Counted from the stretch's first letter, positions 5,500 through 36,975 are shown. The stretch: DNA of 42,018 bases from a virus (IMGVR_UViG_3300021090_000055:1-42018); one strand, 5' to 3'. Made by a program: numbers and translations. Notes: generated from the letters alone by a model not told the origin.

Positions 5500-5526
5500 C
5501 AGCCCGGGCTTGGCGCTGATGAATGA
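5263..5526 (+). CDS. Open frame through the repeat array, doubtful gene
   Basis: A GTG overlapping the previous stop (GTGA) opens 87 codons that end in the ATGA of the large terminase, so both ends are coupled in the style of this genome. The peptide is made only of repeat-derived sequence (RQFLYLDICRAFG, RHFLYLDNCR, later the same DNA in another frame as TVSLPRYLSCFRTV). It is more likely a bridge that keeps ribosomes moving into the terminase gene than a functional protein. No ribosome site of its own and no known family. Confidence 0.25.
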   Translation: MKLRQFLYLDICRAFGLSHSVKLSVRLRHFLYLDNCRLSHSVKTSVRLRQTVSETPTVSLPRYLSCFRTVALSQTVSETQPGLGADE

Positions 5527-7028: not shown

Positions 7029-7044
7029 CCGCCCGGAGGGCAGC

Positions 7045-8664
7045 GTGACTCAACCCGCCTCACTCGAGTCCTTCGGCTCCGATATCGATCGGGCGATTCG
7101 CCGGTCTGTGGAGACCATCGATTCCACCGACCTCGTCGGCGTTGGCGATCGCTACGGTGTCCTGGCATTCGCGGCCGCGTTCGCCGACGCCGTCCCCAGC
7201 TGGGGAGTGAGTCCCAGCGTGCGCGATAGCATGCTGCGCCAGTTCATCACAAAGGAGCCCTTCGCTGGCTCGGCGTTCGGCAGCATCATTGCCCGCAACG
7301 CCGCGTTCTCCTGGGAGATTCGCGGGCCCGAACGCACCCAGCAGATCGGCCACGAGCTGCTCCTCAACGCCAACTGGGGTGGCGGCTGGGTGGAATTCAT
7401 CAGTCTCCTCAGCATGGACTACCTCACCCAAGACAAGGGCGCCTTCATTGAGCTGATTCGTGAGGCCGACAGCGAGCGTGCCCCGGTGGTCGGCCTGCGC
7501 AACCTGGACGCGGCGATGTGCTGGTCCACGGGTAACCCGCTGCAGCCGGTGATCTTCCTCGACCGTGTGAGCGGGAAGTACCACCGCCTGAAGTGGTATC
7601 AGGTGAGGCAGCTGCGCGAGCTGCCGATGTTCACCGGCAACTTCACCGGGACGTTCGGCCGCTACCACGGCATGCAGCTGTGCGCTCTGAGCCGGGCACT
7701 CAAGGGCGCGCAGATCTGGTTCAACGTCGAGCAATACCAGCAGGAGAAAACCGGCGGCCGCCACACCAGGGCGATCCACGTCATCTCGGGTGTGCAGAAG
7801 GCGGACGTCGAGGACGCCATGAAACTGCAGCAGGCGAACGCCGACGGCCAGCTGCTCGAGCGATACATCCAGCCTGTGATCCTCGCCGCGGTGGACCCGG
7901 ACGCGAAACCATCGGTGGCCACGCTCGAACTGGCGGGCCTCCCGGACGCTTTCAACCAGCAGGAGGGCCTGAAGCAGTACCTGACGCTGCTGGCGATGGC
8001 GCTCCTGACGGACTACGGCGAACTGGCGCCGCTGCCAGGCGGGCAACTGGGCTCCGGAATGCAGTCCGAGATTATGGACGACAAGTCCAAGAAGAAGGGC
8101 GCCGGCCTCTTCCGCAAGATCATCACGCATGTGATGAACACGGTGATCCTTCCCGACAACCTCGAGTTCGCCTACGACGAGCAGGATATGGGCGAGGAGG
8201 AGGCCGAGGCCACGGTCAAGAAGCTGCGCGCCGAGGCGCGTGCACTGATGGTCCAGACCGGCGAGGTTGACCGCGCCGGCGCCCGCCAGATGGCGCTGGA
8301 CGACGGCGATATCAGCCCGGAACTGTTCGAGCAGATGAACGCCAAGGACTTGACCGGCGGTGCCTTCGCGGACACCCAGCGATACATCGTCCAGATCGGT
8401 GGAGGCCCGGGCGCGGAAACGCCAGGCGGACCGCTCGGTAGCCCTGGCAACATCATCGGCACACCGTTGACCGGGAAGCCGACGCAGACGGTGGCGCCGG
8501 CGCCGGAACCCGCGCCGACCGGCGACCAAGCGCAGGCAACGAAGGCCAGCGACCCGATCGCCGAGGAGCGGCTGGCCACCGAGGCGGACGCCCAGGCGGC
8601 GATCGAGAAGCCCCTCAAGAGGATCTACGCCAACATCAGCAAGCGTCTGACTGAGCTCGAATAG
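7045..8664 (+). CDS. Portal protein
   Basis: GTG start with GGAGGGCAGC just upstream. The 539-aa product has the layout of portal proteins of the DUF935/SPP1-type: an N-terminal part with FITKEPFAGSAFGSIIARN, a stretch with DKGAFIELIRE and LRNLDAAMCWSTGNPLQPVI, and a long helical region TLLAMALLTDYGELAPLPGG followed by the crown helices. A low-complexity Pro/Gly/Thr tail (about residues 465-510) precedes a final helix. The dodecameric portal forms the DNA gate at one capsid vertex, docks the terminase and later the connector. Position directly after the large terminase supports the call. Confidence 0.88.
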   Translation: MTQPASLESFGSDIDRAIRRSVETIDSTDLVGVGDRYGVLAFAAAFADAVPSWGVSPSVRDSMLRQFITKEPFAGSAFGSIIARNAAFSWEIRGPERTQQIGHELLLNANWGGGWVEFISLLSMDYLTQDKGAFIELIREADSERAPVVGLRNLDAAMCWSTGNPLQPVIFLDRVSGKYHRLKWYQVRQLRELPMFTGNFTGTFGRYHGMQLCALSRALKGAQIWFNVEQYQQEKTGGRHTRAIHVISGVQKADVEDAMKLQQANADGQLLERYIQPVILAAVDPDAKPSVATLELAGLPDAFNQQEGLKQYLTLLAMALLTDYGELAPLPGGQLGSGMQSEIMDDKSKKKGAGLFRKIITHVMNTVILPDNLEFAYDEQDMGEEEAEATVKKLRAEARALMVQTGEVDRAGARQMALDDGDISPELFEQMNAKDLTGGAFADTQRYIVQIGGGPGAETPGGPLGSPGNIIGTPLTGKPTQTVAPAPEPAPTGDQAQATKASDPIAEERLATEADAQAAIEKPLKRIYANISKRLTELE

Positions 8665-16728: not shown

Positions 16729-18186
16729 ATGGATATCACTGCCGAAATGATTGGTCAGGCTCTGCTGGGGCTGGTGCAGAACGTCAAGGCCACGGGCGCC
16801 AAGCACGACGCCGGCACCACTCCGGCCACCACGGGCTACGTGCACGGCCCTGGCGGGCTGCTGTCGTACCCGGGCGTCGACCCGGTCGTCTTCCACACGA
16901 ACGTCGGCTTTATTCCCGGCGTGATGAACTCGATCCCCGCGGTGCCGACGCGCTTCGACACCCCGCTCTTCGAGATCGTGACCGGCATCAAGGCGGACGC
17001 CGCCGGGCAGGAAGAGGCCGCGGGAGTCTGCGATGTCGCCCCGGTGGGAGGCACGATGAAGGCGGGCATCGTCACGTTCCGCTTCGGCCGCTACCAGCGG
17101 CGCACGCGCACGATCGAACTCAACCGGCTCGGTCATCTCAACAACCGCGCCGAGCCCATGGACCTGCAGCTGGTCGGCCAGTCCGCGGGCGCAAACGTGT
17201 TCGGTGGGCCGGCCAACGGTGCGTTCCCGCAGGGCCAGATCTTGACCAACGAGATCGACGCCGTCATGCAGGAGCGGGCTGTCAGCCTGAACCGCCAGCT
17301 GCAGCGCCAGGTCTGGACCGGCAACCCGGGCAACAATAACGCCGGCGGCGGATACGCCGAATTCGCTGGCCTCGATCTGCTCATCAATACCAACTGGAGG
17401 GATGCCCTCACCGGCAACGCCCTGCCGAGCCTCTACCCGACCATCTTCAACTTCGCGTTGAAGCAGATCGATTCGAACGGGCCGGAGCTGGTCAATCAGG
17501 TCACCTACCTGGCTCGCCAGGTGCGCGACCTCGCGGAACGCACCGGTGTCAGCAACGTCCGCTGGGCCTTCACAATGAGGCCTGCGCTGTTCTTCGAGCT
17601 GACCAAGGTCTGGCCCTGCGCCTATTTCACCAACCTCTGCACGTTCGGCGCCGGCACCGCGACCGACATCCGCCAGAACATCGACCTCGGCGACCAGACG
17701 GCGATGCGGGATGCTATGCGGCAGGGCCGCTACCTGCTCATCGATGGAGAACGCTGGGACGTCATCCTCGACGATGCGATCGTGGAGTACTCCAACACCA
17801 CGCTGAACGGTGTGACGTCGGGCTGCTTCAGCTCCGACATCTACCTCCTGCCGATGAGTGTCAGCGGCCGCGCGACGCTCTACTTCGAGTATTTCGACTT
17901 CAGCAACGCGAGCCTGGCATCCGCCCTTGGTCAGGGCATGGTGCTGGCTCGAGTCCTTGGCGGCGGCGCCTGGCTGGAGACCATCCGGCAGACGCTCTGG
18001 TGCGTCGACTGGCAGGCGAAGATCGAACCGCGGCTCATCCTGCGGACGCCCTGGCTCGCTGGCCGCATCACGAACGTCCAGTACTGCCCGCTCATCCAGA
18101 CGCGCCAGCCGTTCCCGGACAGCGCCTACTGGGTCAACGGTGGCGAGGTCTCCCGTCCGGGGCCGAGCCTCTACAACCCGTTCTAG
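16729..18186 (+). CDS. Major capsid protein, HK97-like
   Basis: ATG after GGGAGGGACGCC. The 485-aa product follows the protease-scaffold gene and precedes a strong terminator, the standard position. Features are an N-terminal arm, GFIPGVMNSIPAVPTRFDTP, the E-loop region FRFGRYQRRTRTIELNRLG, a long spine-helix region (NEIDAVMQERAVSLNRQLQR), an Asn/Gly-rich loop near residue 200 and P/A-domain strands such as VRWAFTMRPALFFELTKVWP. Unlike minimal HK97 proteins it has a C-terminal extension (residues 380-485) with WVNGGEVSRPGPSLYNPF. It forms the icosahedral shell. No separate decoration gene is obvious, except perhaps the following small gene. Confidence 0.85.
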   Translation: MDITAEMIGQALLGLVQNVKATGAKHDAGTTPATTGYVHGPGGLLSYPGVDPVVFHTNVGFIPGVMNSIPAVPTRFDTPLFEIVTGIKADAAGQEEAAGVCDVAPVGGTMKAGIVTFRFGRYQRRTRTIELNRLGHLNNRAEPMDLQLVGQSAGANVFGGPANGAFPQGQILTNEIDAVMQERAVSLNRQLQRQVWTGNPGNNNAGGGYAEFAGLDLLINTNWRDALTGNALPSLYPTIFNFALKQIDSNGPELVNQVTYLARQVRDLAERTGVSNVRWAFTMRPALFFELTKVWPCAYFTNLCTFGAGTATDIRQNIDLGDQTAMRDAMRQGRYLLIDGERWDVILDDAIVEYSNTTLNGVTSGCFSSDIYLLPMSVSGRATLYFEYFDFSNASLASALGQGMVLARVLGGGAWLETIRQTLWCVDWQAKIEPRLILRTPWLAGRITNVQYCPLIQTRQPFPDSAYWVNGGEVSRPGPSLYNPF

Positions 18187-18419
18187 TCTCGAGCGCCTCG
18201 AGCGCCAACGAAGCAGAAGGCCCGGTGAAAACCGGGTCTTTTGCTGTGTGTGGTTGACCGACGTGACCGGCTCCGGAGATACCCGGACATATCCGCTATT
18301 GACACGGAGGTCCTTGCCGCGGACGAGACGAACCCGCATGATGACGCTTCGGCGCCGAGCGGCCCGGGGTCCGACAGCCAGGCCGCCGGCGACCGCAATC
18401 CCACCTGGAGGAATCCCCT
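18187..18419 (+). other. Gap after capsid gene: terminator and unclear coding
   Basis: After the terminator the remaining 170 nt keep one frame open (18241 onward) whose translation, with DISAIDTEVLAADETNPHDD, has a protein-like acidic composition but no ribosome site, and which runs out of frame into the next gene. It could be a remnant of a small decoration or connector gene. I see no other signal. Confidence 0.4.
18212..18246 (+). terminator. Strong Rho-independent terminator after capsid gene
   Basis: A 15-bp stem (two or three G-T pairs) with CCCGGT-GAAA-ACCGGG at its tip; GAAA is a stable GNRA tetraloop, and the 3' arm runs into TCTTTTGCT. It should cap the very abundant capsid mRNA and make expression of the next gene depend on read-through or another promoter. 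Confidence 0.85.
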
Positions 18420-18758: not shown

Positions 18759-18789
18759 CGGCGCGGGTGTCATCTGGTTCTCCTGGCCG

Positions 18790-18820
18790 AAGCCCCGGTG
18801 GTCAAGCACCGGGGCTTTTG
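18790..18820 (+). terminator. Rho-independent terminator before glycosylation block
   Basis: AAGCCCCGGTG (18790-18800) and CACCGGGGCTT (18807-18817) form a perfect 11-bp stem with a 6-nt loop, followed by TTTTGC. It insulates the glycosylation operon from the capsid unit. The next promoter begins 2 nt later, the same terminator-promoter arrangement as at 29676-29736. Confidence 0.88.
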
Positions 18821-18821
18821 C

Positions 18822-18870
18822 TTGCCACCTGTCCGCCTGTTAGGCTTCCCCGCGTGAAGGGGGAAGCAAC
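18822..18870 (+). promoter_or_regulatory. Promoter and leader hairpin of glycosylation operon
   Basis: TTGCCACCTGTCCGCC is followed 3 nt later by TTAGGCT (-10 candidate TAGGCT, 18841). The leader folds into a perfect 8-bp stem, GCTTCCCC (18844-18851) with GGGGAAGC (18860-18867), inside the recurring GGGGAAGCAAC motif, just before the ATG at 18874. The -35/-10 spacing from TTGCCA would be only 13 nt, so either the -35 is TTGCTT or another sigma factor or activator is used. Confidence 0.55.
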
Positions 18871-18873
18871 TCC

Positions 18874-19812
18874 ATGCTCCAAGCGCGCATCTTCGTAACC
18901 GGCGGCGCCGGCTTCCTGGCCCGGGCGCTCTACCGCCGGGCTACCCGTGAGAACTGGCCAGCAACGTTCACCTGCTTCAGCCGCGACGACGCCAAACACG
19001 TCGCCCTGCGGCGCCGCTACCCGAATATCCATTGCATACGCGGCGACGTCGCCGGCGATCGCGACGTCCTCGCCGGCGCGATGCGCGGGCATGACCTGGT
19101 CGTCCACGCGGCTGCCGTCAAATATGTCGACCTCGCTGAAACGGCCGTGTTCGACACGGTGCGGGTGAACGTCCACGGCTCCGAGAACGTGGCGATGGCC
19201 GCCATCTCCGCCCAGGTGCGGCGCGTCATCGGCATCAGCACCGATAAGGCGGCGCTGCCGGTGAACGTCTACGGGATGACCAAGGCGGTCATGGAACGGA
19301 TCCTCGTCGAGGCCGACCGCCTGGCCACCGAGACGGAATTCACGGTCTGCCGCTACGGGAACGTCGTTGGGTCGACCGGCAGCGTGATCCCCATGTTCAA
19401 ACGCCAGTACCAGGAGCAGGGCTCGGTGACCGTCACCGACCCGGCGATGACGCGCTTCTGGATGAGCGCGGACGCAGCGATCGACACTATCGTCGAGGCC
19501 TCGCGCTGCAAGCGTGGCTCGACGGTTATCCCTGTGCCCCAGGCCGCATCGATGCGCACGGTCCTGGAGGCCTGCGGCATCCCCACGACCTGCGCGCGCG
19601 TGGTGGGCCTGCGCCCGGGCGAGAAGATCCACGAGCTGCTTATCCACGAGCAGGAGTCGGTGCGCTGCTACCAGAACGGCTACGGGTATTGGGAGTTGCG
19701 GCCGCCAGGCGAGGTCCACGGGACGCAGCAGTTCTCACTGAGCTCGGAGAACGCCATCTCTCTGTCGGCCGAGGAACTCTCCGCGTTCATCGCGGATTCG
19801 GAGGGCATCTAA
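18874..19812 (+). CDS. PseB/FnlA-type UDP-GlcNAc 4,6-dehydratase
   Basis: A 312-aa extended short-chain dehydrogenase. The NAD(P)-binding motif is TGGAGFLA (residues 9-16); HAAAVKYVDLAE (78-89) is close to the HAAALK..p..E block of the PseB/FlaA1/CapD/FnlA group; the active site is STDKA (122-126) with Tyr133 and Lys137 in YGMTK. The substrate-side motif CRYGNVVGSTGSVIPMF also fits. Known family members remove water from UDP-GlcNAc to make a 4-keto-6-deoxy sugar, some with 5-epimerisation. No membrane anchor, so it is cytosolic. It opens the glycosylation operon. Whether it inverts C5 cannot be read from the sequence. Confidence 0.88.
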   Translation: MLQARIFVTGGAGFLARALYRRATRENWPATFTCFSRDDAKHVALRRRYPNIHCIRGDVAGDRDVLAGAMRGHDLVVHAAAVKYVDLAETAVFDTVRVNVHGSENVAMAAISAQVRRVIGISTDKAALPVNVYGMTKAVMERILVEADRLATETEFTVCRYGNVVGSTGSVIPMFKRQYQEQGSVTVTDPAMTRFWMSADAAIDTIVEASRCKRGSTVIPVPQAASMRTVLEACGIPTTCARVVGLRPGEKIHELLIHEQESVRCYQNGYGYWELRPPGEVHGTQQFSLSSENAISLSAEELSAFIADSEGI

Positions 19813-20627
19813 TGGTGATCCACATTCTCGGCGCCGGCGGAATGCTCGGGCAGGCGCTCATCAAAGCCTGCGAGGCTAAGGGCCAGCCGTGCATTGGCTG
19901 GGGCCATCATGTTGTGGATATCAGCGACCCTATCCAGGTCGCTGGCCTGGTCACCAGGACCATGTTTCCTAACGACGTCATCATCAACGCCGCCGGCGCC
20001 ATCCCATTGAAGAATCCTTCGGCGATTGAGATGCTGCGGACGAACGCTCTCGGCCCCTGGAACGTCGCCGAAGCAACCCGCCAGGTTGGCGGTATCGCCG
20101 TCGTCCACGTCTCCACCGATTGCGTGTTTGCCGGCCGGAAGCCCCGCAAATCCGGTTACGACGCTGGTGATGTACCTCGCCCACCGATGGATCTCTACGG
20201 CCGTTCGAAGCTCGCCGGCGAGGTAGCGATGGAGCATGTCATCAACGTGCGCACCTCGTTCGTCGGTCCGGAGCACGGCCTCTGGAAGCACATCGTGGAG
20301 CAGCCCGGCCGGGTCAATGGCTGGAGGGATACATCCTGGTCGGGGTCGACCGTGGATGCAGTCGCGGCGAGCCTGCTCATAATCGCCACCATTCCCAATC
20401 GGCTCGGCTGCCATCGCCCCGAGCGCCTTGGCTTGCACCGCCGCGGCAACATCGAGCACCTGGCCACCGAGCGGCCGCTCACCAAACTGGAGGTCTGCGA
20501 GTTGCTCTGCAAACACCTCGGAGGGCCTCCGCCTACGCCGGGCGTCCATGGCGCCGGCGTCTATCGCGCCATGGAACCGACCATCGTCCTACCGTCGCTC
20601 GCTGAAGCCCTTGGAGAACCCCTGTGA
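19812..20627 (+). CDS. RmlD/FnlB-like nucleotide-sugar reductase
   Basis: TAATG overlap with the dehydratase. The 271-aa SDR protein has GAGGMLGQAL (residues 8-17) for NAD(P)H, INAAGAIPLKNP, and the catalytic STD (101-103), Tyr129 and Lys133 in DLYGRSKLAGE. This is the dTDP-4-dehydrorhamnose reductase (RmlD) pattern, also used by WbjC/FnlB, which works with a PseB-like dehydratase towards N-acetyl-fucosamine-type sugars. Together with the preceding gene it could reduce a 4-keto-6-deoxy amino sugar. The C-terminal part is longer and divergent (LTKLEVCELLCKHLGG), so substrate is uncertain. Confidence 0.85.
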   Translation: MVIHILGAGGMLGQALIKACEAKGQPCIGWGHHVVDISDPIQVAGLVTRTMFPNDVIINAAGAIPLKNPSAIEMLRTNALGPWNVAEATRQVGGIAVVHVSTDCVFAGRKPRKSGYDAGDVPRPPMDLYGRSKLAGEVAMEHVINVRTSFVGPEHGLWKHIVEQPGRVNGWRDTSWSGSTVDAVAASLLIIATIPNRLGCHRPERLGLHRRGNIEHLATERPLTKLEVCELLCKHLGGPPPTPGVHGAGVYRAMEPTIVLPSLAEALGEPL

Positions 20628-21331
20628 CCTCTATTGCGGTAGTCATCCCCGTGGGCCCGCGGCCCTCACACCAGCGCTACCTGCAGGAGCTGATGACCTC
20701 CCTCGCAACGCAGACGCGGCCCGCCGACCAGCTGGTCTTCGTCGACGACATGGCCAACCTCGAACTCGACGAGCTGAGCGAGATGTACCGGCGCTTCAGC
20801 GGATCGGCGGTCTGGCCCGAGATCCATATCGTCCGCAACTATTGGCTGCTCGGAGTCGCCGGCAGCTTCAACGTGGGCGTCGCCTACGCCACGCTCGAAA
20901 ACGACCTGGCGTTCATGATGGGCGCCGACGACGTCATGCGGCCGACCTGCCTGGAAGAGACGGTCCGCTGCTTAGGATTGCACGGCGGCATCGACGCCTA
21001 TTACTACGCCGGGCTCAGCTACATGGACACGCTCGAGGAGCAGACGGTGCCCTGCAACGCGGCCGCCGTCACCCGCGGCCTCTGGCAGATGACCGGAGGA
21101 TTCCCCGTCGAGTCGGCGGTCGGTGCTCCCGACTGCGCGCTCGTCTCGATCATGATGACCTACATGAACAGCCGGCTGATCCCCATCGCCGGCGGCGCGC
21201 CCCTGGTGGACTACCGCCGGCACGCCGAGACCGATACCGCGACGCGTGGCCCCGCCTGGCAGGGCCCGATCCTCGAGTCGAGGAACATCCTCACGCGCGA
21301 CTGGCAGGCACCTGATTGGGGGCGAATGTGA
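20624..21331 (+). CDS. Family 2-like glycosyltransferase
   Basis: GTGA overlap with the reductase gene. The 235-aa protein has the GT-A beginning SIAVVIPVGPRPSHQRYLQE and LATQTRPADQLVFVDDM, a nucleotide-sugar metal site candidate AFMMGADDVMRP (about residues 105-116), and a C-terminal acceptor region YYYAGLSYMDTLEE to VDYRRH. Single-domain and soluble. It would transfer an activated sugar to an unknown acceptor, plausibly a virion protein given the setting. Confidence 0.85.
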   Translation: MTSIAVVIPVGPRPSHQRYLQELMTSLATQTRPADQLVFVDDMANLELDELSEMYRRFSGSAVWPEIHIVRNYWLLGVAGSFNVGVAYATLENDLAFMMGADDVMRPTCLEETVRCLGLHGGIDAYYYAGLSYMDTLEEQTVPCNAAAVTRGLWQMTGGFPVESAVGAPDCALVSIMMTYMNSRLIPIAGGAPLVDYRRHAETDTATRGPAWQGPILESRNILTRDWQAPDWGRM

Positions 21332-22026
21332 TACCGATCTCGATCGTTGTGACCACCTACGTGCCGCCCGATACGACGCGGGCCGACGCTTTGCTGATGG
21401 CAGCCGAGTCGTGGCGTTCGCGTCTGTGCTCCGAAGGGTTCATAGACCTCATCGTTGAGGGCGATGGGAGCCCCGACGACGCGTGGCTTCGAAAGCTGGA
21501 AGACGTCTGGCCGGAGCTGCGCTACGAGACCGGCCGCGGAGGCGTCGGCGCATCGCTCAACCGCGGGCTTGCCAAGGCGTTCGAGCGTTCTCCCATCGCC
21601 CTCTACGCGGTAGACGATTGGGCGTTGACGGAAGACTTCAACATCTCGCCATGGGTCCAGATGCTCGAGGAGAACACCCAGATCGGCTGTGTCCGCCTGG
21701 GCCCACCGCACCCAGGGATCACCGGGACCGTCATCGCCGCCTCCTCGAACTGGCAGGGATGGGCGCTCCGGCTCGACCCGGCCGCCGGTGGCATCATCGC
21801 CGCCCAGCGGCCGGCTCTCTGGCACCGGCGCTTCTTCGACCGCATCGGACCTTGGAAGGAGAACTGTTCGGCCCTCGAATGCGAGGCCGATATGAACAGT
21901 CGTTGGGCCGTGGATGCCCAGCGCGAACTCCTCCACACGCCGGAGATCGTCCTGGCCCTGCCGCATCCCTGGTACCACATCGATACCGTTAGTCTCTCAG
22001 CCATCAATCCAGGAGAACGATCATGA
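21328..22026 (+). CDS. Family 2-like glycosyltransferase
   Basis: GTG overlapping the previous stop (GTGA); an in-frame TTG 12 nt earlier is less likely. The 232-aa product begins ISIVVTTYVPPDTTRADALL and has GVGASLNRGLAKAFERSP followed by IALYAVDDWALTEDF, whose DD matches the metal-binding site of GT-A enzymes. WKENCSALECEADMNSRW may form the acceptor side. It shares the 'vDDW' type with the gene at 22586, so both may have the same sugar donor. Confidence 0.8.
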   Translation: MIPISIVVTTYVPPDTTRADALLMAAESWRSRLCSEGFIDLIVEGDGSPDDAWLRKLEDVWPELRYETGRGGVGASLNRGLAKAFERSPIALYAVDDWALTEDFNISPWVQMLEENTQIGCVRLGPPHPGITGTVIAASSNWQGWALRLDPAAGGIIAAQRPALWHRRFFDRIGPWKENCSALECEADMNSRWAVDAQRELLHTPEIVLALPHPWYHIDTVSLSAINPGERS

Positions 22027-22589
22027 GCTGCGACGCGCACAAGCTGGCGGTCACGCGCCGATTCCTCGACTGGGCCGACGTGGATCTCATCCGCGAACTG
22101 ACGGCGCTCCTGGACCGCGACCGCGATGTTGTGGTCGTGGACCTCGGCGCCGGCTCCGGCACCACGGCCGGCGCCGTTTGGGCCGAACGGTCCCAGCGCA
22201 TCCGAATCACGACCTACGATATCGACCCGACAAATCTCCATTGGTCGGGCGTCTTCATGTCGAACATCGGAGCGGCGATCGACGAGGCCTGGCAGGGTCA
22301 TCTGAAAGACTCGACGGAAGCGGCCGCGGATTGGGGCGACGAATCGATCGACCTGCTCATGCTCGACACCTCGCACACCTACGAACAGACCGTCGCCGAA
22401 CTCGCCGCCTGGCTGCCGAAGGTCCGTCGCGATGGCTGGGTATGGTGTCACGACTACCGTGGCGATTACCCGGGCGTGACGCAGGCTATCGATGACCTCG
22501 TCGGAGCTGGTGATATCGAAACGTGGAAGGTCGAGGGCCTCGGGTGGTCCGGCAATCGCCCGCGAATGACGCAGCCGGAGGCGGCATGA
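22023..22589 (+). CDS. SAM-dependent methyltransferase
   Basis: ATGA-coupled. The 188-aa protein has a Rossmann motif I VVVVDLGAGSGTTAGAVW (Asp40, glycines 42-46), motif II ITTYDIDPTN and a motif IV-like IDLLMLDTSHTYEQT followed by GWVWCHDY. This is the Methyltransf_24/Macrocin-O-methyltransferase-like group, which often methylates sugars. In this operon it likely adds an O-methyl group to a transferred sugar (inference). Confidence 0.85.
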   Translation: MSCDAHKLAVTRRFLDWADVDLIRELTALLDRDRDVVVVDLGAGSGTTAGAVWAERSQRIRITTYDIDPTNLHWSGVFMSNIGAAIDEAWQGHLKDSTEAAADWGDESIDLLMLDTSHTYEQTVAELAAWLPKVRRDGWVWCHDYRGDYPGVTQAIDDLVGAGDIETWKVEGLGWSGNRPRMTQPEAA

Positions 22590-23269
22590 CCTGGCCGAAC
22601 GTCTGCATCATTCTCCTCACCTACGAGCGCCTCGAGTACGCCAAGCGCACCCTGAAACTCGCGCTCGACGGCATCGCCTACAGCGGCCGCCTCTCCGTTC
22701 ACATCGCCGACGACGGCAGCGGCCCGGGATACATCGACGAACTCGTGCAGCTGGCCGGCTGCTATCCCCACCTGACCGGCATCTCGACCACGAACGCCGA
22801 GCGTGGTGGCTATGGGAAGAGCTACAACATGGCGACGATGGTGGTCCACCACGACAACCCCGTGCTGCTGCCGCTCGAGGACGACTGGGAACTCCTGCGC
22901 CCGCTCAACCTCGACCCGCTCATCGAGACCCTGGGAGCCGGCGCGGGCATCGGCTGCATCCGTCTCGGCTACCTGGGCTTCACGCAGGACCTGCGCGGCC
23001 GCTTCGTTCACGCCGGCGGTGGCACCTACCTGCTGCTCGACGAGGACAGCCCTGAGCCGCACGTCTTCAGCGGCCATCCTCGCCTGGAGACGCGTGCATG
23101 GGCGCGAGAGGTCGGTCCCTGGCCCGAGGGATTGGGCGCCGGCGCCACGGAGTTCGCGGTCTGCCACCGACCGCAGGCGCGCCGCGGGATCGCCTGGCCC
23201 ACCGACCTGGTGCTGACCAGCGGTAACCTCTTCGGCCACTTCGGCGCTATCCAGGCGAGGGACGATTGA
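22586..23269 (+). CDS. Family 2-like glycosyltransferase
   Basis: ATGA overlap. The 227-aa product starts VCIILLTYERLEYAKRTLKL, an unmistakable GT-A opening, followed by IADDGSGPGYIDELV, GGYGKSYNMATMV and LPLEDDWELLRPLNLDP with the DD metal site. The C-terminal part (PRLETRAWAREVGPWPEG) sits where acceptor specificity lies. Third single-domain glycosyltransferase of the operon, more like the second than the first. Confidence 0.85.
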   Translation: MTWPNVCIILLTYERLEYAKRTLKLALDGIAYSGRLSVHIADDGSGPGYIDELVQLAGCYPHLTGISTTNAERGGYGKSYNMATMVVHHDNPVLLPLEDDWELLRPLNLDPLIETLGAGAGIGCIRLGYLGFTQDLRGRFVHAGGGTYLLLDEDSPEPHVFSGHPRLETRAWAREVGPWPEGLGAGATEFAVCHRPQARRGIAWPTDLVLTSGNLFGHFGAIQARDD

Positions 23270-23466
23270 TGAACGCCCAGGAATTCAGGCAGCAGCGCCA
23301 GGCGATGCGGCTCTCGATGCAGGCCATGGCCTTTCGCAGCGGCATCAACAAGGCGTACATCTCCGAATGGGAAACGGGCATCCGGGTACTCGACCCCGAA
23401 CGCATCGCCCGGCTGGAGGCCGCCCTGGAATCGCCCATCTGCCCCGCCTGCAAGAGGCCGTTTTGA
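23269..23466 (+). CDS. XRE-family HTH protein, 65 aa
   Basis: TGATG overlap on both sides. The peptide is almost only a helix-turn-helix: FRQQRQAMRLSMQAMAFRSG, INKAYISEWETGIR, LDPERIARLEAAL, matching the XRE core including the recognition helix 'ayISewEtG'. It ends with CPACKRPF, a zinc knuckle. It probably regulates transcription, perhaps of its own operon; no dyad lies nearby, so the target is unknown. A regulator embedded between glycosyltransferases is uncommon. Confidence 0.85.
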   Translation: MNAQEFRQQRQAMRLSMQAMAFRSGINKAYISEWETGIRVLDPERIARLEAALESPICPACKRPF

Positions 23467-26201
23467 TGCGCGTCTTCATCCATCCGCAGATCTCGGGCGA
23501 GGACACCGGCCAGGGCGGCATTCGCCGCGTGATCGAGGGCCAGCGCCGACACCTGCCCGAGCATGGCATCGAACTTGTCGACGACCCGGCCGAGGCAGAC
23601 GTCATCGCCTGCCACGTCCAGATCCCCCCAGAATACCTGCGGGACTATCCCGACAAGGCGTTCGTGCACCACTGCCACGGGATGTATTGGGCCGAATACG
23701 AGTGGCCGAAGTGGGCGAACGAGGCGAACACCAACGTGATCGACGCCATCCGCGCCGCAGACGCGGTCACGGTGCCAACCGAGTGGGTCGCCCGCATCGT
23801 CGAACGCCATACATGCCGCAAGCCCTGGGTGGTGCCGCACGGCCTCGACCTCGAGGAGTGGATGCCCGGGCCCGGCGCCGGCGTACCCTATGTGCTCTGG
23901 GACAAGACCCGGCCGGACCCGGTATGCGACCCGCGGGTTCTCAACGACCTGGCCGGCCTCATGCCGGAGATCCAGTTTGTCTCCACCTTCGGCGAGGTCG
24001 CCCCGAATGTGACCATCACCGGGCACCAGGCCTTCGCTGGCGCCCGCGAACTCACGCGCAGCGCGCACGTGTACCTGGCGACCTCCCGCGAGACCTTCGG
24101 CATCGCCACCCTGCAGGCGATGGCCTGTGGCGTACCCGTGGTCGGCTACGACTTCGCCGGCCAGGCGGAGATCGTCACGCACATGGTCGATGGGTACCTG
24201 GCCGAGCCGGGCAACCTCAACGACCTGGCCGCCGGCGTGCGCTGGGCGTTCGCCAACCGTGATGCCGCCGGCGCCGCGGCGCGCGCGACGGCCCAGAAGT
24301 ACTCATGGGACTATCCGTCGCTCATGTACGCCCAGATCTACGGTGAGGCGCTCGAACATCGCCGGCGCCAGGTGCCGCGCGTCTCGTTCATCGTCCGCGC
24401 CTATAACATGGGCCGCTGGCTCGGGGAGACGCTGCAGTCGATCAGCGCCCAGACGGTCCGGGACTGGGAATGCATCATTGTTGACGATGGCTCGACGGAC
24501 GATACGGCCGTGGTCGCCGAAATGTACACGCGGGACCCACGCTTCACGCTCCTGCGCCAGGCGAACGGCGGCATCGTCGACGCCATGATCAGTGGCATCG
24601 AGGCATCGCGCGGCCGCTACGTGATGGCGGTGGACGCCGATGATCGGCTGACCCCGAACGCCATGGAGCTGCTCGCCGGCGCCCTCGACAAGGACCGCGC
24701 CATCCACGCCGCCTATGGGAACCTGTTCTTCGTCTCGGAGGACGGCACCACGGCGATCGACTTCTCGTCCGACGGGCGCATCATCGAATCCGGGCACAGC
24801 GGTTGGCCGATGCAGTTCCGCTGGGACTGGCAGGCGCTGGGCCGCAACCTCCTGCCCTATTGCACGATGTACCGGCGCGAGGCCTGGGACCTCACGGGTG
24901 GCCACCGCCGGCGCTGCGCGACCGCCGAGGATGCCGACTTCTGGCTGCGCATCAGCTCCTATGGTTTCCGCCCAGCGATGGTGTCGGAAGCCGACGTACT
25001 CATCTACCGCGTCCGGGGAGACAGCTACTCGCGACAGGTCACGCCTGTCGATTGGGCAGCCTGGTTCCCCTGGCGCGTGGATGCATGGCTGGCGCCGGCG
25101 GGCGCGGTGACACAGGAGTTGCTTCCCCTACCGTCACTAGACCCGCCGGCGGTGGCTGTTGTCATCCCCGTGGGGCCCGGGCACGAGCGCCTGGTCATGG
25201 ACGCGATCGACAGCGTCGATGCACAGAATTTCCGCTGGTGGGAATGCATCGTCGTCAACGACAGCGGCCGCGAACTGCCACGGATGCCAAGCTGGGTGCG
25301 TCTCGTCGAGAGCCGCGACGAGCAAGATCGTCTGCATCGCTTCGGCGGTGTTGCCCAGGCCCGGAACGCCGGGATCGCAAGCGCGCGCGCCGCGCACTAC
25401 CTGCCGCTCGACGCCGATGACATGCTCGAGCCAACCGCCCTGCAGGTGCTATGGGAAGCCCACAAAGAGCGCCCGGACGTCATCCTCTACACCGACTTTT
25501 GGCAGGACCAGGACGGTAAATGGACCATCTGGCGGGCGCCGGACTGGGACGCGAACCTGCTGCTCAGCAAGGGTGCCATCGCCGGCGTGACCGAACTCGT
25601 GCCCGTCCGCTACTGGCATCAGGTCGGTGGCTACCCTGAGGACACAGCCTGGGAAGACTGGGCTTTCAAACTGCTCTGCGCCGAGGCGGGCTTTTGTTCG
25701 GCGCGAGTCGCGCGGCCGCTCTTCACCTACCGCAAGCACACCGGGCGCCGGAGCAGCGATAATTGGGCCACGTTCGAACGCAGCAAGGCCGATATGATGC
25801 TGCGATTCGGTGATTACTGGTCGGACGGGAACGTCCCGCCGAGGAGGACACTCTTGGCATGTGGCTGCAGCGGAAACGCACGCGCGACGGCATATCCGCC
25901 GGCGCCGATCCTGCCGGACGGCAGCACCGGAGGCGACATGGCGCTCATCCGCTACGACGGCGAGCGCATCGCGACCTTCCATCTCAAGGGGCCGTCAGGG
26001 ACGCAGTACCACTTCGCCAAGGGCGAGGAACTCTACGCCTTGGCGGCAGACGAAGCCTTCCTGCTTGACCAGCAGGGCTTTGCCAAGGTCGACGTCGCGG
26101 CCGCGGACCAGCCAGGCGACGCTCCGATCCTGCAGTCGGCTCAGACCGGCAGCGCGGAAATACCCGCTGAGACCCCGTCAGATGCCCAGGGCGTCAAATG
26201 A
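23466..26201 (+). CDS. Three-domain glycosyltransferase (GT4-GT2-GT2)
   Basis: TGATG-coupled, 911 aa. Residues 1-300 form a GT-B/GT4-like unit: MRVFIHPQISGEDTGQGGIR, WVVPHGLDLEEW, and YLATSRETFGIATLQAMACG with the Ex7E-like donor site. Residues 304-560 are a GT2 unit: VSFIVRAYNMGRWLGETLQS, IIVDDGSTDDT, VMAVDADDRLTPNAM. Residues 562-800 are a second GT2 unit: VAVVIPVGPGHERLVMDAID, CIVVNDSG, LPLDADDMLEPTAL. From about 825 a small beta domain follows, MALIRYDGERIATFHLKG with GTQYHFAKGEELYALAADEA, resembling short phage virion proteins. Such a protein could build an oligosaccharide in one pass. Confidence 0.88.
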   Translation: MRVFIHPQISGEDTGQGGIRRVIEGQRRHLPEHGIELVDDPAEADVIACHVQIPPEYLRDYPDKAFVHHCHGMYWAEYEWPKWANEANTNVIDAIRAADAVTVPTEWVARIVERHTCRKPWVVPHGLDLEEWMPGPGAGVPYVLWDKTRPDPVCDPRVLNDLAGLMPEIQFVSTFGEVAPNVTITGHQAFAGARELTRSAHVYLATSRETFGIATLQAMACGVPVVGYDFAGQAEIVTHMVDGYLAEPGNLNDLAAGVRWAFANRDAAGAAARATAQKYSWDYPSLMYAQIYGEALEHRRRQVPRVSFIVRAYNMGRWLGETLQSISAQTVRDWECIIVDDGSTDDTAVVAEMYTRDPRFTLLRQANGGIVDAMISGIEASRGRYVMAVDADDRLTPNAMELLAGALDKDRAIHAAYGNLFFVSEDGTTAIDFSSDGRIIESGHSGWPMQFRWDWQALGRNLLPYCTMYRREAWDLTGGHRRRCATAEDADFWLRISSYGFRPAMVSEADVLIYRVRGDSYSRQVTPVDWAAWFPWRVDAWLAPAGAVTQELLPLPSLDPPAVAVVIPVGPGHERLVMDAIDSVDAQNFRWWECIVVNDSGRELPRMPSWVRLVESRDEQDRLHRFGGVAQARNAGIASARAAHYLPLDADDMLEPTALQVLWEAHKERPDVILYTDFWQDQDGKWTIWRAPDWDANLLLSKGAIAGVTELVPVRYWHQVGGYPEDTAWEDWAFKLLCAEAGFCSARVARPLFTYRKHTGRRSSDNWATFERSKADMMLRFGDYWSDGNVPPRRTLLACGCSGNARATAYPPAPILPDGSTGGDMALIRYDGERIATFHLKGPSGTQYHFAKGEELYALAADEAFLLDQQGFAKVDVAAADQPGDAPILQSAQTGSAEIPAETPSDAQGVK

Positions 26202-26500
26202 ACGACGTCGCCGCCGTCCTGGTCGTCGGGCTGGGTGCCTGGCGCCTGGCGTCCCTCATGGTCAACGAGGAGGGACCGTTTGGACTCTTCGAGCGCATGC
26301 GCGCGTGGGCGGGCGTTCCGCGCGTGGGCATCCAGGAGCCGCGGCCGTTCATCGGCGGCTTACTCTCCTGCGTCTGGTGCTCTAGTATTTGGACCGCGGC
26401 CGGCCTGTGGGCGGTCTGGCACTACCTTCCCGCCGGCGCCCTCTGGCTGGCCGCCGCCGCTATAGCACCTATCGTCGAACGCTGGGTGCACCAGAAGTAG
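26198..26500 (+). CDS. DUF1360-like membrane protein
   Basis: ATGA overlap with the large glycosyltransferase. The 100-aa product fits DUF1360: an N-terminal helix VLVVGLGAWRLASLMVNEEG, an amphipathic loop GPFGLFERMRAW, then the Cys motif GLLSCVWCSSIWTAAGLWAV and a last helix ALWLAAAAIAPIVERWV. Two or three membrane helices. The family occurs in Bacillus and many phages with unknown function. It is the last gene before the connector, possibly placing glycosylation at the membrane. Confidence 0.82.
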   Translation: MNDVAAVLVVGLGAWRLASLMVNEEGPFGLFERMRAWAGVPRVGIQEPRPFIGGLLSCVWCSSIWTAAGLWAVWHYLPAGALWLAAAAIAPIVERWVHQK

Positions 26501-26510
26501 GGAGTTCGCC

Positions 26511-27761
26511 GTGGGCCGCACCGAGACCGAAACGAAACTGTCGACCGCCGAATGGGCCAAGATCATGGGCATCAATCCGCTGCACTTCGAGGGCGTCAAC
26601 CTGCAGGCGTTGACCGAGATCGAGGGCAACTGCGCCGGCGCCTGGCTGCAGCACGAATGGCAGCAGCACGATGCGGTCAGCCGCGAGGAACTCTCCCGCT
26701 TCATCGCCCGGGCCGAGGCCGATATCGAAGATGCCCTGGGCTTCAGCCTGGCGCCGACCTGGGAGGTCGACGAGCGCCAGGTGAGCATTCGCCCGGTCCA
26801 GGTCGAGACCATCAACCTCGGCGGGTCTGACGTGCGCTGGTATCGCCAGCCCATCATCACCGATAAGAAGTGGTTCATCGCCGGCGGCATCCGCGGGACC
26901 GCGGTCGTCCTCGCGGCCGCGCCCATCACCTGGGCGATCGTGCCCGCCGGCGACTATCCGCGCACCGGCACCGTCTCCGCTCCCTACACGGGCAGTGACC
27001 CGTGCGAGATCCAGATCTTCTATCCGGGCAAGGGCGCCGACCCGACCTACCAGATTCGCCCGGCCCAGGTGAGCATCGCCGCCGGCGTGATCACGGTGAC
27101 GTTCGCCCGCGAGCTCACCGTGCTCGAGCTGTTGCAGGAGGACATCCTGGCCGCGCCGGTCGACGGCCTCGATAACGCGGCCTTCCTCACGACAGTCGAT
27201 ATCTACCGGGTCTACAACGATCCGAGCACGCAGGTCTCGTTCCTCTGGGAGCCCGTTGGCGGCTGCGGCTGCGGTTCGACCGGCAGTTGCCCGACCTGCA
27301 GTTACGCGACATCCACCGGATGTCTGGTCCCGCGCGATGGCCGGCTGGGAATCATCAGCTATGGGCCGGCGACCTGGGACGCAGCGACGGGCGCGTTCAT
27401 CGCGGCGCCGTTCGGCATGGCGCGGCAGCCTGATATTCTCCGGCTGTATTACCAGGCCGGCCTCCAGGATACGAAGCTCGCCTGCCCGCGCACGACCATG
27501 TCGGCCGACTGGGCGCGGACGGTGGCCTACTATGCGGCCTCGATGGTCGACCGTGAGTGGTGCGCCTGCTCGGCGAACGTCGCGGAGAAGTGGCAAGAAG
27601 ATCTTTCGTTTGTTTCCGGCGGAGAGGAATATTCCCGTTATGGCCTCAGTCCGGCAAACCTCAACAACCCGTTCGGCCCGCGCCGCGGCGCCATCTATGC
27701 CTGGCAGCGGTGCAACGGCCGCGACACGCGCATCGGTCGCGCCGCCGTCATGGCTCGATAG
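26511..27761 (+). CDS. Head-tail connector protein, enlarged
   Basis: GTG with GGAG upstream. The 416-aa product starts with helices typical of gp6-type connectors (EELSRFIARAEADIEDALGF) and ends with WARTVAYYAASMVDREWCAC and a region rich in Asn/Pro/Arg, as in gp6/gp15-like adaptors that sit under the portal. Between them are beta strands and a Cys-rich insert, CGCGSTGSCPTCSYATSTGC (about residues 249-268), that could bind two metals. Gp6-type connectors are usually near 100-200 residues, so this is about twice the usual length. Predicted structural adaptor between portal and tail. Confidence 0.65.
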   Translation: MGRTETETKLSTAEWAKIMGINPLHFEGVNLQALTEIEGNCAGAWLQHEWQQHDAVSREELSRFIARAEADIEDALGFSLAPTWEVDERQVSIRPVQVETINLGGSDVRWYRQPIITDKKWFIAGGIRGTAVVLAAAPITWAIVPAGDYPRTGTVSAPYTGSDPCEIQIFYPGKGADPTYQIRPAQVSIAAGVITVTFARELTVLELLQEDILAAPVDGLDNAAFLTTVDIYRVYNDPSTQVSFLWEPVGGCGCGSTGSCPTCSYATSTGCLVPRDGRLGIISYGPATWDAATGAFIAAPFGMARQPDILRLYYQAGLQDTKLACPRTTMSADWARTVAYYAASMVDREWCACSANVAEKWQEDLSFVSGGEEYSRYGLSPANLNNPFGPRRGAIYAWQRCNGRDTRIGRAAVMAR

Positions 27762-28127: not shown

Positions 28128-29648
28128 ATGGTCGCCATCAAGAACTCGAAGGTCGTCAAGAACACCCAGAGCCGCGTCTTCACAATTGAAGGCGGCGCCA
28201 ACCCGGGGACCTCTCCCGTGTACCAGGGATATGCCCGCGCCATGGGCCTCGCCTGGCCCCAGGGGGCAATCACCCCGGTCCGCATCCCGAGCGCCACTCT
28301 CTACGACCGCTTTGATATCGTCGCCACCCTGCAGGCACAGCAGGGGCTGCCGGCCATGTCGATCGAGTCGCGCTACCGCCAGGTCCTGAGCGACCTCCTG
28401 CGCCTCGTGAAGAAAGGCTGCCAGGTGGATATTCAAGTCCACATCGGCAGCTGCAAGGCGCCTAATGACTTCCTCGGCGGCTGGACCGATGGCCACATCG
28501 TGGTTCTCCAGGGCGCCAACGCCACCGACTACACGACTGGCGACCTCGGCGCCCTCGATTCGAACGAACGCGCGATGGTCATGGAGACCGTGCCGTTCAC
28601 CGGCCTCGACCTATTCGAAATCGGCCCGATGGTATCGACGCTGCAGGCCGAGACGCTCATCACCGACGAGATCGTCGATGTCACGATCTGCGACTCGATC
28701 GCCTGTGGCAGCTGCGGCCTCCCGAGCGATGGCTGCCAGGTCGTCTTCGCGGTGGTCTCGGACTCCAGCGGTTCGCCGGGTATCCCTGCCGCGGTCATCT
28801 GGTCGGCCGACGGCGGCATCACCTGGAACAAGCGCGGCATCTTCACGCTGGGCCTCGCCGAAACGCCCACCGCCATCGCGTGCGTCGGCACCGACCTGGT
28901 CGTGCTCACGAACAACGGACTTGCCCATCACTGGATCCCGATCAGCGACATGGTCAACGCGACCGGGAGCTGGACCAAGGTCACCACCGGCTACGTCGCC
29001 ACGCATGGCCCGAACAACCTGGTGAGCATCGATCGCACGCACACGTGGATCGTCGGCGACCTTGGTTACATCTACTTCAGTGCCGATATCCGCAGCGGTG
29101 TCTCGGTGCTGTCGGCCGGTGACCTCACCGTGCAGAACCTGCTCGCCATCGACGCTACAGATATCCTCACGCTCGCCGCAGTCGGCGCCTCGAACGCGCT
29201 CTTGACCAGCAACAACGGTGGCACCACCTGGTCGCTCGTCACCGGTCCCGCGGTCGGCATCGCGCTCAACACCGTTGCGATGAGCACCGACCAGTTCTTC
29301 CAGATCGGCACGGCCGGTGGAAACCTCTACTACACCAGGAACGCTGGTCTCACCTGGACGCTGAAAGCCTTCCCTGGCTCCGGCTCCGGGGTCATCCGGG
29401 ACATCGTCATGGTCAACGACACCGTCGGCTACATGGCGCACGACACGGCGGGCTTCGTCGGCCGCGTGCTGCGGACCATCGACGGCGGCAACAACTGGTA
29501 CGTGACTCCCGACAACCCGAACATCCTGTTCCCGTCGGTGCGTCGCATCAACCGCATCGCGGCCTGCCGCGACAACATCAACATCGCCTTCTACGGCGGC
29601 CTGGGGAACGACGCCAACGATGGAAAGCTTCTGAAGGCGGCCGCCTAA
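28128..29648 (+). CDS. Major tail protein fused to Asp-box beta-propeller
   Basis: A 506-aa protein. Residues 1-190 look like a tail tube subunit (VVKNTQSRVFTIEGGANPGT, VRIPSATLYDRFD, LGALDSNERAMVMETVPF) and the gene holds the position before the chaperones. From residue 205 it carries repeated Asp-box (BNR) motifs: WSADGGITWNKRG (about 224), TSNNGGTTWSLV (361), YTRNAGLTWTLK (403) and RTIDGGNNWYVT (451), the signature S/T-x-D/N-x-G-x-T/N-W of sialidase-type propellers. No sialidase arginine triad is visible, so it is more likely a sugar-binding or shield domain. A loop with CDSIACGSCG joins the parts. Hundreds of copies would cover the tail. Confidence 0.78.
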   Translation: MVAIKNSKVVKNTQSRVFTIEGGANPGTSPVYQGYARAMGLAWPQGAITPVRIPSATLYDRFDIVATLQAQQGLPAMSIESRYRQVLSDLLRLVKKGCQVDIQVHIGSCKAPNDFLGGWTDGHIVVLQGANATDYTTGDLGALDSNERAMVMETVPFTGLDLFEIGPMVSTLQAETLITDEIVDVTICDSIACGSCGLPSDGCQVVFAVVSDSSGSPGIPAAVIWSADGGITWNKRGIFTLGLAETPTAIACVGTDLVVLTNNGLAHHWIPISDMVNATGSWTKVTTGYVATHGPNNLVSIDRTHTWIVGDLGYIYFSADIRSGVSVLSAGDLTVQNLLAIDATDILTLAAVGASNALLTSNNGGTTWSLVTGPAVGIALNTVAMSTDQFFQIGTAGGNLYYTRNAGLTWTLKAFPGSGSGVIRDIVMVNDTVGYMAHDTAGFVGRVLRTIDGGNNWYVTPDNPNILFPSVRRINRIAACRDNINIAFYGGLGNDANDGKLLKAAA

Positions 29649-34740: not shown

Positions 34741-35286
34741 ATGCCGGACTGGCCCGTCGAAGCTGCGCAACCCCTGCCGGTCTTCCTGTCGACGATCGAG
34801 GACTGGGTCCGCAAAACCGGGCGGCTGGCTGATTACACGTCGGCGGCTTTCATTGATGGAGCGGTCTCCGTCCCCCTCATCGTGCGCAGCACGTTCACCG
34901 CCAAGAAACTGTTCTGTTTGAACGGCGCGATCCTGGTCGGGAACTGCCAGATGGCCATCGCGCGGTCCGGAGTCAGTCCTTCCTTCGGACCTGCGCCCAC
35001 TTCCAGCATTACCCTGGCGTCGATCGTTGCCCAGGCCGGTATCAGCGTCTGGCAAGCATTCGACATCCCCGACGTTATCCTCACTCCCGGGCTCTATTAC
35101 CTGAGATATGGTTCTGACGCCATCACCGGGCAAGTGCAGCGTCTCTACGCTCCCACCGCGAATCTGGGTGAGACGTGCTACCTGGCCGGCTGCTGGCTTG
35201 GCACATATCCGCTCTATGGGGGTAGCTTTTTCCAGGGTATGTTCGACGGAACGGTACCGATCCTCGCCGTGGGAGGGGTGGCCTGA
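34741..35286 (+). CDS. Tail-tip protein A1 of an A-B-A-B paralog set
   Basis: ATG 8 nt after a GGGTGAG ribosome site. The 181-aa product is beta-rich, with KKLFCLNGAILVGNCQMAIA and AQAGISVWQAFDIPDV, both nearly repeated in the third gene of the set. The fold looks like a small jelly-roll or sandwich: 'tvkkl.cfnGa...GncdialfG....p...' then 'pG.Yyl.yg.d..tg.v.rl'. Position just after the tape measure suggests a distal tail or side-fibre component, possibly receptor or glycan binding (inference). It ends in a TGATG overlap with the next gene. Confidence 0.7.
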   Translation: MPDWPVEAAQPLPVFLSTIEDWVRKTGRLADYTSAAFIDGAVSVPLIVRSTFTAKKLFCLNGAILVGNCQMAIARSGVSPSFGPAPTSSITLASIVAQAGISVWQAFDIPDVILTPGLYYLRYGSDAITGQVQRLYAPTANLGETCYLAGCWLGTYPLYGGSFFQGMFDGTVPILAVGGVA

Positions 35287-35831
35287 TGCCAGGATGGCCA
35301 GATCGACCCCGCTTCTCTCCGTCCGTCAGCATCTGCAACGCCGAGAATTGGTACAGGGAAACCGGCGTGCTCACGCTCTGGACCGGCGCCGCCTGGTCGA
35401 CGGCGAACCTCGCGGTCTACACGCCGATCTACGTGCCGAAGCCGATGTCGCTCACGCAACTGGGCGTGTTCCACGGTGGGGTGGTGAGCGGCAACATCGA
35501 TGTCGGCATCTTCTTGCCCGACAGCGAGGGCAAGCCGGGCGCGCGCCTGGTCTCGAAGGGATCAACGGCCCAGGCCGGCATCAATAGCCTCGTCCTGCAC
35601 AACACCGCGGACGTCTGGGTCGATGGTCTCGTTTACCTGGCGTGCGCCCTGGATAACAATACCGGCCAGCTGATGCGGCTGGTCGCCCTGGCGGCGGACG
35701 GTTCGGGCCCGAACGAAGGGAGTATTTTCACGCAGGCCGCGGCCTTCCCACTGCCGGCGAACGCGACACCGAACGCCGCCGGCGTCGCTGCCAATATCCC
35801 GGTTATGATCGCAACTGTGGGGATGAGCTGA
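35286..35831 (+). CDS. Tail-tip protein B1 of the paralog set
   Basis: TGATG-coupled, 181 aa. It starts MPGWPDRPRFSPSVSICNAE, then NWYRETGVLTLWTGAAWSTA, FHGGVVSGNIDVGIFLPDSE, GKPGARLVSKGSTAQAGINS and GSIFTQAAAFPLPANATPNA. The same blocks recur in the fourth gene, so B1 and B2 are close paralogs. It shares the general fold with A1 and A2 (short WxxxTG, 'G.cdvgif', 'pG.vYla.a.d..tg...rl'). Role as for A1. Confidence 0.7.
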   Translation: MPGWPDRPRFSPSVSICNAENWYRETGVLTLWTGAAWSTANLAVYTPIYVPKPMSLTQLGVFHGGVVSGNIDVGIFLPDSEGKPGARLVSKGSTAQAGINSLVLHNTADVWVDGLVYLACALDNNTGQLMRLVALAADGSGPNEGSIFTQAAAFPLPANATPNAAGVAANIPVMIATVGMS

Positions 35832-36415
35832 TGGATTACCCAAAGCCGATCGATACGCAGGTCGAGCCGATCTTCCTGACGACGGCCGCGGAATACCGGC
35901 GCCAGTATGGGAAGGTGCCGCTGCTCACGTCAGCGGTCTGGGGCATCGCGAATCAGATCCTTGCTGGACCCGTTAAAGTTCGCCAGCGCATGACCGTTAA
36001 GAAACTCTATTGCTTCAATGGTGCCGCGGTGTCTGGCAACTGTGATATCGCGCTGTTCGGTCCAGCCGGCCGACTCACGGTTGGCGGATCGAACTGGATG
36101 AATCCTCAGTGGCGGTTGACGGCGGCAGGATCGACCGCCCAGGCCGGGATCAGTGTCTGGCAAGCGTTCGACATCCCCGACTTCATCATCCCTCCGGGGA
36201 TGTACTGGATCGCCTACGGCCTCGACAACATCACCGGCGCCGTGACGCGACTCGACACGCTGGCCGCGAACATGAACCAGCTCGGCCACCTGGTAAACGC
36301 GCTTTCTCTACAGGCGAGCGGCATACCGATTTTTGACAACAACGCCGGCGTTCCGCTGGCCACGCTGGCAGCCGCGGCATCGTATCCGCTGCTGGCGCTC
36401 GGAGGGATCGCCTGA
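35831..36415 (+). CDS. Tail-tip protein A2 of the paralog set
   Basis: TGATG-coupled, 194 aa. MTVKKLYCFNGAAVSGNCDI and STAQAGISVWQAFDIPDFII are almost identical in pattern to A1, and PPGMYWIAYGLDNITGAVTR matches A1's PGLYYLRYGSDAITGQVQR. It differs in the N-terminus (MDYPKPIDTQVEPIFLTTAA) and in a longer end (NQLGHLVNALSLQASGIPIF). Divergence with preserved core suggests one duplication of the A-B pair followed by change at exposed loops. Confidence 0.7.
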   Translation: MDYPKPIDTQVEPIFLTTAAEYRRQYGKVPLLTSAVWGIANQILAGPVKVRQRMTVKKLYCFNGAAVSGNCDIALFGPAGRLTVGGSNWMNPQWRLTAAGSTAQAGISVWQAFDIPDFIIPPGMYWIAYGLDNITGAVTRLDTLAANMNQLGHLVNALSLQASGIPIFDNNAGVPLATLAAAASYPLLALGGIA

Positions 36416-36975
36416 TGCCTCTCTGGCCGTCTCAGATCGTCCCGAACGACTTTGTCGACACCTTCTACCTGCCGAACACCGAGTGGTGGTACCAGCAAAC
36501 CGGCAAGGCGCCGATCGAAACGTCGGCCGCCTGGACCACCGCTAATAAGGCCGTCTACACGCCCGTGATCGTGCGCGGCATGTCCAAGCCGTCTGGAATC
36601 GCCGTCTACAACGGCGCCACGGCCGCTGGCATGCTGCAGGTGGGGCTCTATGCAGTCGATAGCGAGGGCAAGCCCGGGGCGCGGTTGATGGCGAGCCCAC
36701 CGACCCCCCAGGTTGCGGCCGACGTCGGGCGATTCACCGACGTCAATTTTGACGACGTCGGGAAGTGGGCCGGGCCCGGTGTCTATTACCTGGCCTGCGT
36801 CTTCGATGGCGCCACGGGGACGGTGACACGCCTGGCGGCGCTCACAAGCGACCAGAGTGGGCCTATCATGGGCGGGATATTCACGCAGGCGACGGCGTTC
36901 CCGCTGCCCGCGGTGGCGACCCCGGACGGCGCCGGCGTGGCGTTCAACGTCCCGATCCTCGTGATGTTCGGCTAG
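36415..36975 (+). CDS. Tail-tip protein B2 of the paralog set
   Basis: TGATG-coupled, 186 aa. It begins MPLWPSQIVPNDFVDTFYLP and has NTEWWYQQTGKAPIETSAAW, then KAVYTPVIVRG, VGLYAVDSEGKPGARLM and GGIFTQATAFPLPAVATPDG, all paired with B1. It ends the four-gene set. The FTQA.AFPLPA and DSEGKPGARL blocks are the strongest evidence for paralogy. Confidence 0.7.
   Translation: MPLWPSQIVPNDFVDTFYLPNTEWWYQQTGKAPIETSAAWTTANKAVYTPVIVRGMSKPSGIAVYNGATAAGMLQVGLYAVDSEGKPGARLMASPPTPQVAADVGRFTDVNFDDVGKWAGPGVYYLACVFDGATGTVTRLAALTSDQSGPIMGGIFTQATAFPLPAVATPDGAGVAFNVPILVMFG

Follow-up and report, generated by a model that had tools for sequence, protein, structure and literature searches.

The window, that is, the whole stretch of 42,018 nt analysed here and itself a fragment of a viral genome, carries a cassette of eight genes for sugar activation, glycosyl transfer and methylation that is lodged among the genes of the virion. 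We consider it likely that, in the cytoplasm of the host, the phage uses these enzymes to make a glycan of its own and to link it to virion proteins, i.e., that it glycosylates its own particles. Decoration of the virion had been put forward in the original prediction and is the best-supported reading in that the locus keeps its place beside the capsid gene across related viruses; the acceptor and the sugar are predicted assignments. The wider proposal, that an uncultured tailed-phage lineage uses a 6-deoxy-amino sugar of its own making to build a glycan of the capsid or tail and that swapped tailoring enzymes give rise to virion 'glycotypes', seems to us evenly balanced.

The cassette (18874-26201) lies on the plus strand, as do the bordering genes, and was found between the capsid and tail genes as predicted. 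Its upstream border is the gene of the major capsid protein (16729-18186), whose HK97 fold is confirmed by an AlphaFold model (pLDDT 77.7) matching phage capsids with a Foldseek probability of 1.00. A Mu-F-like head protein and the terminase are encoded further upstream, and a DUF5131 protein (PF07505, E=1.8e-63) is found far upstream of the terminase at 1865-2821. All eight cassette genes are open and follow one another in the predicted order with overlaps of 1, 4, 4, 4, 4, 1 and 1 nt, the most likely starts of three of them being corrected to 21328 (GTb), 22586 (GTc) and 23466 (GT3). The last gene overlaps by 4 nt with a gene for a small DUF1360 membrane protein (26198-26500; PF07098, 4.7e-8; one TM-like segment), and 10 nt downstream of the latter a head-tail connector-type gene (26511-27761), named from gene order and conserved in position in 13 viruses, closes the locus.

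Two strong terminator-like hairpins with U-rich 3' sides separate the capsid gene from the cassette, one just 3' of the capsid gene (18211-18245; -29.2 kcal/mol, z -8.1) and one 50 nt ahead of the dehydratase gene (18787-18822; -28.3 kcal/mol, z -3.1). Of the terminator, promoter and leader hairpin that had been ascribed to the cassette, the terminator has candidates in these two structures; a scan of the capsid-dehydratase gap found no sigma70-like promoter, and the leader hairpin is weak (about 18844-18867; z -1.7). The description as an operon of its own is likewise half right, since the hairpins set the cassette off from the capsid gene, but no separating element was found between cassette and connector, and translational coupling runs through the DUF1360 gene to the connector. 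Judged from these gene overlaps and not from RNA, the cassette would head a transcription unit that continues into the virion assembly genes. Downstream of the connector follow a tail-tube-like gene, also named from gene order, and the tape measure gene. The tail-tube-like protein (28128-29648) has a C-terminal BNR/YCF48-type repeat region, which is unusual for a tube protein, and it may accept the glycan or serve in sugar binding. Four tandem genes downstream of the tape measure gene (34741-36975) encode similar proteins of 181-194 aa, two of which were searched against Pfam and gave no match; they are perhaps tail-tip or fibre paralogues.

The first gene (18874-19812) encodes a predicted PseB-like UDP-HexNAc 4,6-dehydratase, with matches to Polysacc_synt_2 (PF02719, E=3.5e-64), to the PseB model (1.3e-66) and, as the best solved structure, to 2gn4 (1.6e-50). 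Its motifs are as claimed, with STDKA from residue 122, Tyr133 and Lys137. The catalytic position holds Tyr (STDKA...YGMTK), as in the UDP-GlcNAc C6 dehydratase 2gn4, whereas the aligned CapE/FnlA-type structures have Met, and the enzyme shows the TDK and YxxxK motifs of the PseB-type family with Tyr (PseB/FlaA1). Its score is below the curated PseB equivalog cut-off (224.7 bits vs 407.75), and we therefore limit the name to 'PseB-like'. The catalytic Tyr is present in all 15 uninterrupted viral dehydratases and across the insert in a further virus, G001. In the latter (L003:18132-20192), a 356-aa intein-like insert sits exactly between STDKA and the catalytic Tyr, and inserts are also present in this virus's reading frames for terminase and portal (L003:2235-4988 and 4975-7536). 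The second gene (19812-20627) encodes a predicted RmlD-like 4-reductase that matches RmlD_sub_bind (PF04321, 2.2e-21), although only the N-terminal half of this profile is covered. Read from the ATG at 19812, it has STD from residue 101, Tyr129 and Lys133, in agreement with the prediction. Both genes thus align with families of nucleotide-sugar SDRs, and the 'deoxy-amino sugar' is a prediction of substrate and product drawn from these assignments.

The remaining genes also belong to the enzyme classes originally named. GTa (20624-21331) is a GT2 (GT-A) transferase (Glycos_transf_2, PF00535, 1.5e-9) with 10 homologues in nine viruses. GTc (22586-23269), part of the conserved core, matches weakly by sequence, and its predicted model (pLDDT 87.9) resembles GT-A structures with a Foldseek probability of 1.00. 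GTb (21328-22026) has no Pfam match and aligns with GTc in one shared family (A4), as a diverged GT-A-type paralogue. The methyltransferase (22023-22589) is of the O-methyltransferase type (Methyltransf_24, PF13578, 1e-14); no relative was detectable by sequence among solved structures, and its homologue in one related virus, G002, is fused to PIG-L. The small XRE protein (23269-23466; HTH_3, PF01381, 1.6e-10) had no homologue in the relatives. GT3 (23466-26201), which belongs to the core of the lineage, is a three-unit transferase of 911 aa with one GT4 domain (PF13692, 4.9e-17) and two GT2 domains (PF00535, 7.3e-36, two stretches). TM-like segments are absent from the seven enzymes of the window, so that GTa, GTb, GTc and GT3 represent phage-encoded soluble glycosyltransferases.

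We posit the following pathway for the proposed virion glycosylation. The dehydratase, by its family and active-site residues, would convert UDP-GlcNAc, its presumed substrate, to a 4-keto-6-deoxy sugar, which the reductase may turn into UDP-2-acetamido-2,6-dideoxyhexose. The GT-A enzymes and GT3 would then assemble a short oligosaccharide straight onto a soluble acceptor protein, and the methyltransferase would cap it, the order of these steps being a suggestion. The scan of cassette proteins turned up neither a flippase or polymerase nor a priming transferase or a Gtr-type membrane protein. Given this lack of membrane machinery and of TM segments, transfer must take place in the cytoplasm onto a soluble acceptor, unless the enzymes feed a pathway of the host. 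Since the locus has kept its position amid virion genes, the acceptor is most likely a virion protein, probably that of the capsid or of an adjacent head or tail gene; among soluble acceptors, DNA is the chief alternative. The likely benefit would be an altered or shielded particle surface. Escape from antibodies, which had been suggested as a purpose, makes a weak general motive where the hosts are, as it appears, environmental bacteria.

To find the lineage, the capsid protein was used as query in an alignment search, which yielded 26 loci in viral contigs and four in MAG bins, with capsid proteins 31-49% identical to that of the window. No capsid relative was detectable among phage isolates (50,697 records), where the dehydratase had matches in six records only, one of them a 635-kb metagenomic phage; the matches in Staphylococcus and Listeria records may, we presume, be host DNA. 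The MAG bins contributed one further virus only, L031. Its contig is 100% identical over 21 kb to L034 although the two are binned in MAGs of different phyla, and the contig of G001 (L003) is also found in a Nitrosotalea MAG (L032), i.e., misbinned virus contigs occur in public MAGs. Binning is thus unreliable here, and an assignment of the host from the MAG loci was rejected.

Sixteen viruses were readable from capsid to connector: the window, G001, G002, G005, G009, G010, G011, G017, G019, G020, G021, G022, G024, G025, L031 and L033, with the locus of G022 being read across contig ends that share a 78-nt direct repeat. At least one glycosyltransferase gene occupies the capsid-connector interval in 15 of these viruses; GT3 is present in 12 and the dehydratase, always located within this interval, in 10. 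Seven incomplete records show the dehydratase at the same place, bringing the count to 17 viruses. G021 has GTc and GT3 only, G019 and G025 a small transferase gene only, and the distant L033 is the sole readable virus without any transferase. The small or absent cassettes of the last three show that the cassette is dispensable in the wider lineage.

The relatives keep a core of dehydratase, GTc and GT3, and the enzymes around it vary. In G005, a DegT aminotransferase, a GNAT acetyltransferase and a rhamnosyl-type O-methyltransferase replace the reductase. G006 and G022 have a formyltransferase and a PIG-L-type deacetylase by homology (tested for G006, assigned through clustering for G022), and G002 combines a Methyltransf_13/14-type C-methyltransferase, an FkbM methyltransferase and the methyltransferase-PIG-L fusion. 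G017 and G018 have an Epimerase-type enzyme in the dehydratase's stead; they had been considered as dehydratase carriers and were rejected, their match to PF02719 being weak. Adjoining the connector in G002 is a gene (L035:720-1997, minus strand) for a 425-aa low-complexity protein with about nine hydrophobic segments and IPSP-type repeats; this 'nine-TM' protein was rejected as a polymerase, as a low-complexity repeat with no family match. Judged from gene content, tailoring genes are exchanged in this viral locus in the manner of O-antigen or capsule loci. As in these bacterial loci, a kept core with exchanged tailoring enzymes may provide each virus with a different glycan.

The same likeness in enzyme repertoire and variability speaks for modification of the host surface, in which the sugar would be placed onto O-antigen, capsule or teichoic acid and would exclude other phages or ease the release of progeny. 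This is the common reading of phage sugar genes (PMC12911398), and two of the relatives encode a tyrosine recombinase. An integrase match is absent, though, from the window and from 13 of 15 viral records, and coupling of the locus to late virion genes means that the host would be modified late. The scanned cassettes also lack the genes that typify Gtr/O-antigen modification clusters (GtrA, a GtrB-type or polytopic transferase). Host glycans, kept as the alternative in the original prediction, are weakened as a target by the missing flippase, polymerase and membrane transferase, and we regard this explanation as unlikely.

A slightly smaller likelihood attaches to hypermodification of DNA, in which the transferases would glycosylate modified phage bases and so block restriction. 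Soluble viral transferases that act on DNA are known, according to the account of Pyle et al. (2024) in PMC12619734, and ThyA-like genes occur in three of 19 records and a C5-methylase above cut-off in one of 18. In the three relatives with ThyA-like genes, modification of DNA is conceivable. TET/JBP matches, on the other hand, were found in none of 19 records, in a search whose controls were silent, and the records, which are incomplete, show no consistent hydroxymethylase or C5-methylase partner. The sugar cassette is moreover placed beside capsid genes and not replication genes, and tailoring of such depth would seem unnecessary for blocking restriction. Glycosylation of a virion protein is the reading we retain.

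The history of the locus was followed through its proteins. Dehydratase distances correlate with capsid distances over 16 viruses (Spearman 0.74, Mantel p <= 0.001), as do those of GT3 with capsid (0.71) and connector (0.90; Mantel p <= 0.001). The correlation falls to 0.50 within the close clade, where some exchange is therefore likely. When a maximum-likelihood tree was built with 32 cellular homologues drawn from two phyla, the viral dehydratases, 16 in number, fell into a single clade (support 100/99); the long-branch cellular sequences L100 and L065 were left out of this tree. In a first tree L100 had fallen inside the viral group; the 3.9-kb piece that encodes it carries no further gene resembling those of the window. 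By these comparisons the cassette is an old viral locus and not a recent host capture. That it is a decaying or newly captured bacterial polysaccharide island with no role in the virion is very improbable, since, for all its O-antigen-like gene set and its varying content among relatives, its composition equals that of virion genes (GC3 0.77-0.89), its dehydratases form a virus-only clade co-diverging with the capsid protein, and no viral member has lost the active-site residues, which in G001 flank the intein-like insert.

To our knowledge, where virion glycosylation has been reported for phages, their transferases draw on nucleotide sugars of the host. A literature search for a description of a locus like the present one found nothing; relative to known phage virion glycosylation, the proposed system would stand out by its self-made sugars and its polymorphic capsid-linked locus. 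If the wider proposal for the lineage is true, it would be a phage counterpart of the autonomous glycosylation of giant viruses, and phage particles could have evolvable glycan coats. The identity of the sugar-bearing virion protein and the selection behind differing sugars would become testable questions. A further lesson is that gene order should be inspected before such genes are labelled as host-directed 'auxiliary metabolic genes'.

Among known systems, bacterial O-antigen, capsule and flagellin-sugar loci (PseB, FnlA/CapE, RmlD) combine a dehydratase with an RmlD-like reductase as the window does, and share DegT aminotransferase, GNAT, formyltransferase, PIG-L and methyltransferases with its relatives. 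The window differs from them by the lack of polymer export machinery, by its position in a virion gene module and by a separate dehydratase clade. In mycobacteriophages, phage-encoded transferases reportedly add sugars to the capsid and tail-tube proteins (PMC12363180; PMC12619734). Like the window, these phages (Che8 gp108-110, Corndog gp38, Myrna) encode soluble transferases in a small coupled cluster, and in Che8 gp108 a GT2 enzyme is joined to a domain of Methyltransf_24, the family of the window's methyltransferase. The Che8 cluster, in contrast, is without sugar-activation genes and occupies the genome's right end, whereas the cassette of the window adjoins the capsid gene; no sequence relation was detectable between the GTb/GTc family and gp109/gp110 or between GT3 and gp108. 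The precedent among large DNA viruses is PBCV-1, which makes its own 6-deoxy nucleotide sugars, encodes a multi-domain transferase ending in an O-methyltransferase-like domain and has a glycosylated capsid protein, Vp54 (PMC4691112). Virus-encoded 6-deoxy nucleotide-sugar synthesis together with transferases is common to PBCV-1, Mimivirus and the window. PBCV-1 and Mimivirus are eukaryotic viruses with a capsid fold unrelated to that of the window phage, PBCV-1 and ATCV-1 use GDP-mannose or UDP-glucose pathways unlike the one predicted here, and the sugar genes of PBCV-1 and Mimivirus are not known as one capsid-linked locus. By analogy of function, the locus of the window may be likened to a combination of both precedents, the virion-directed transferases of Che8 and the self-made sugars of PBCV-1.
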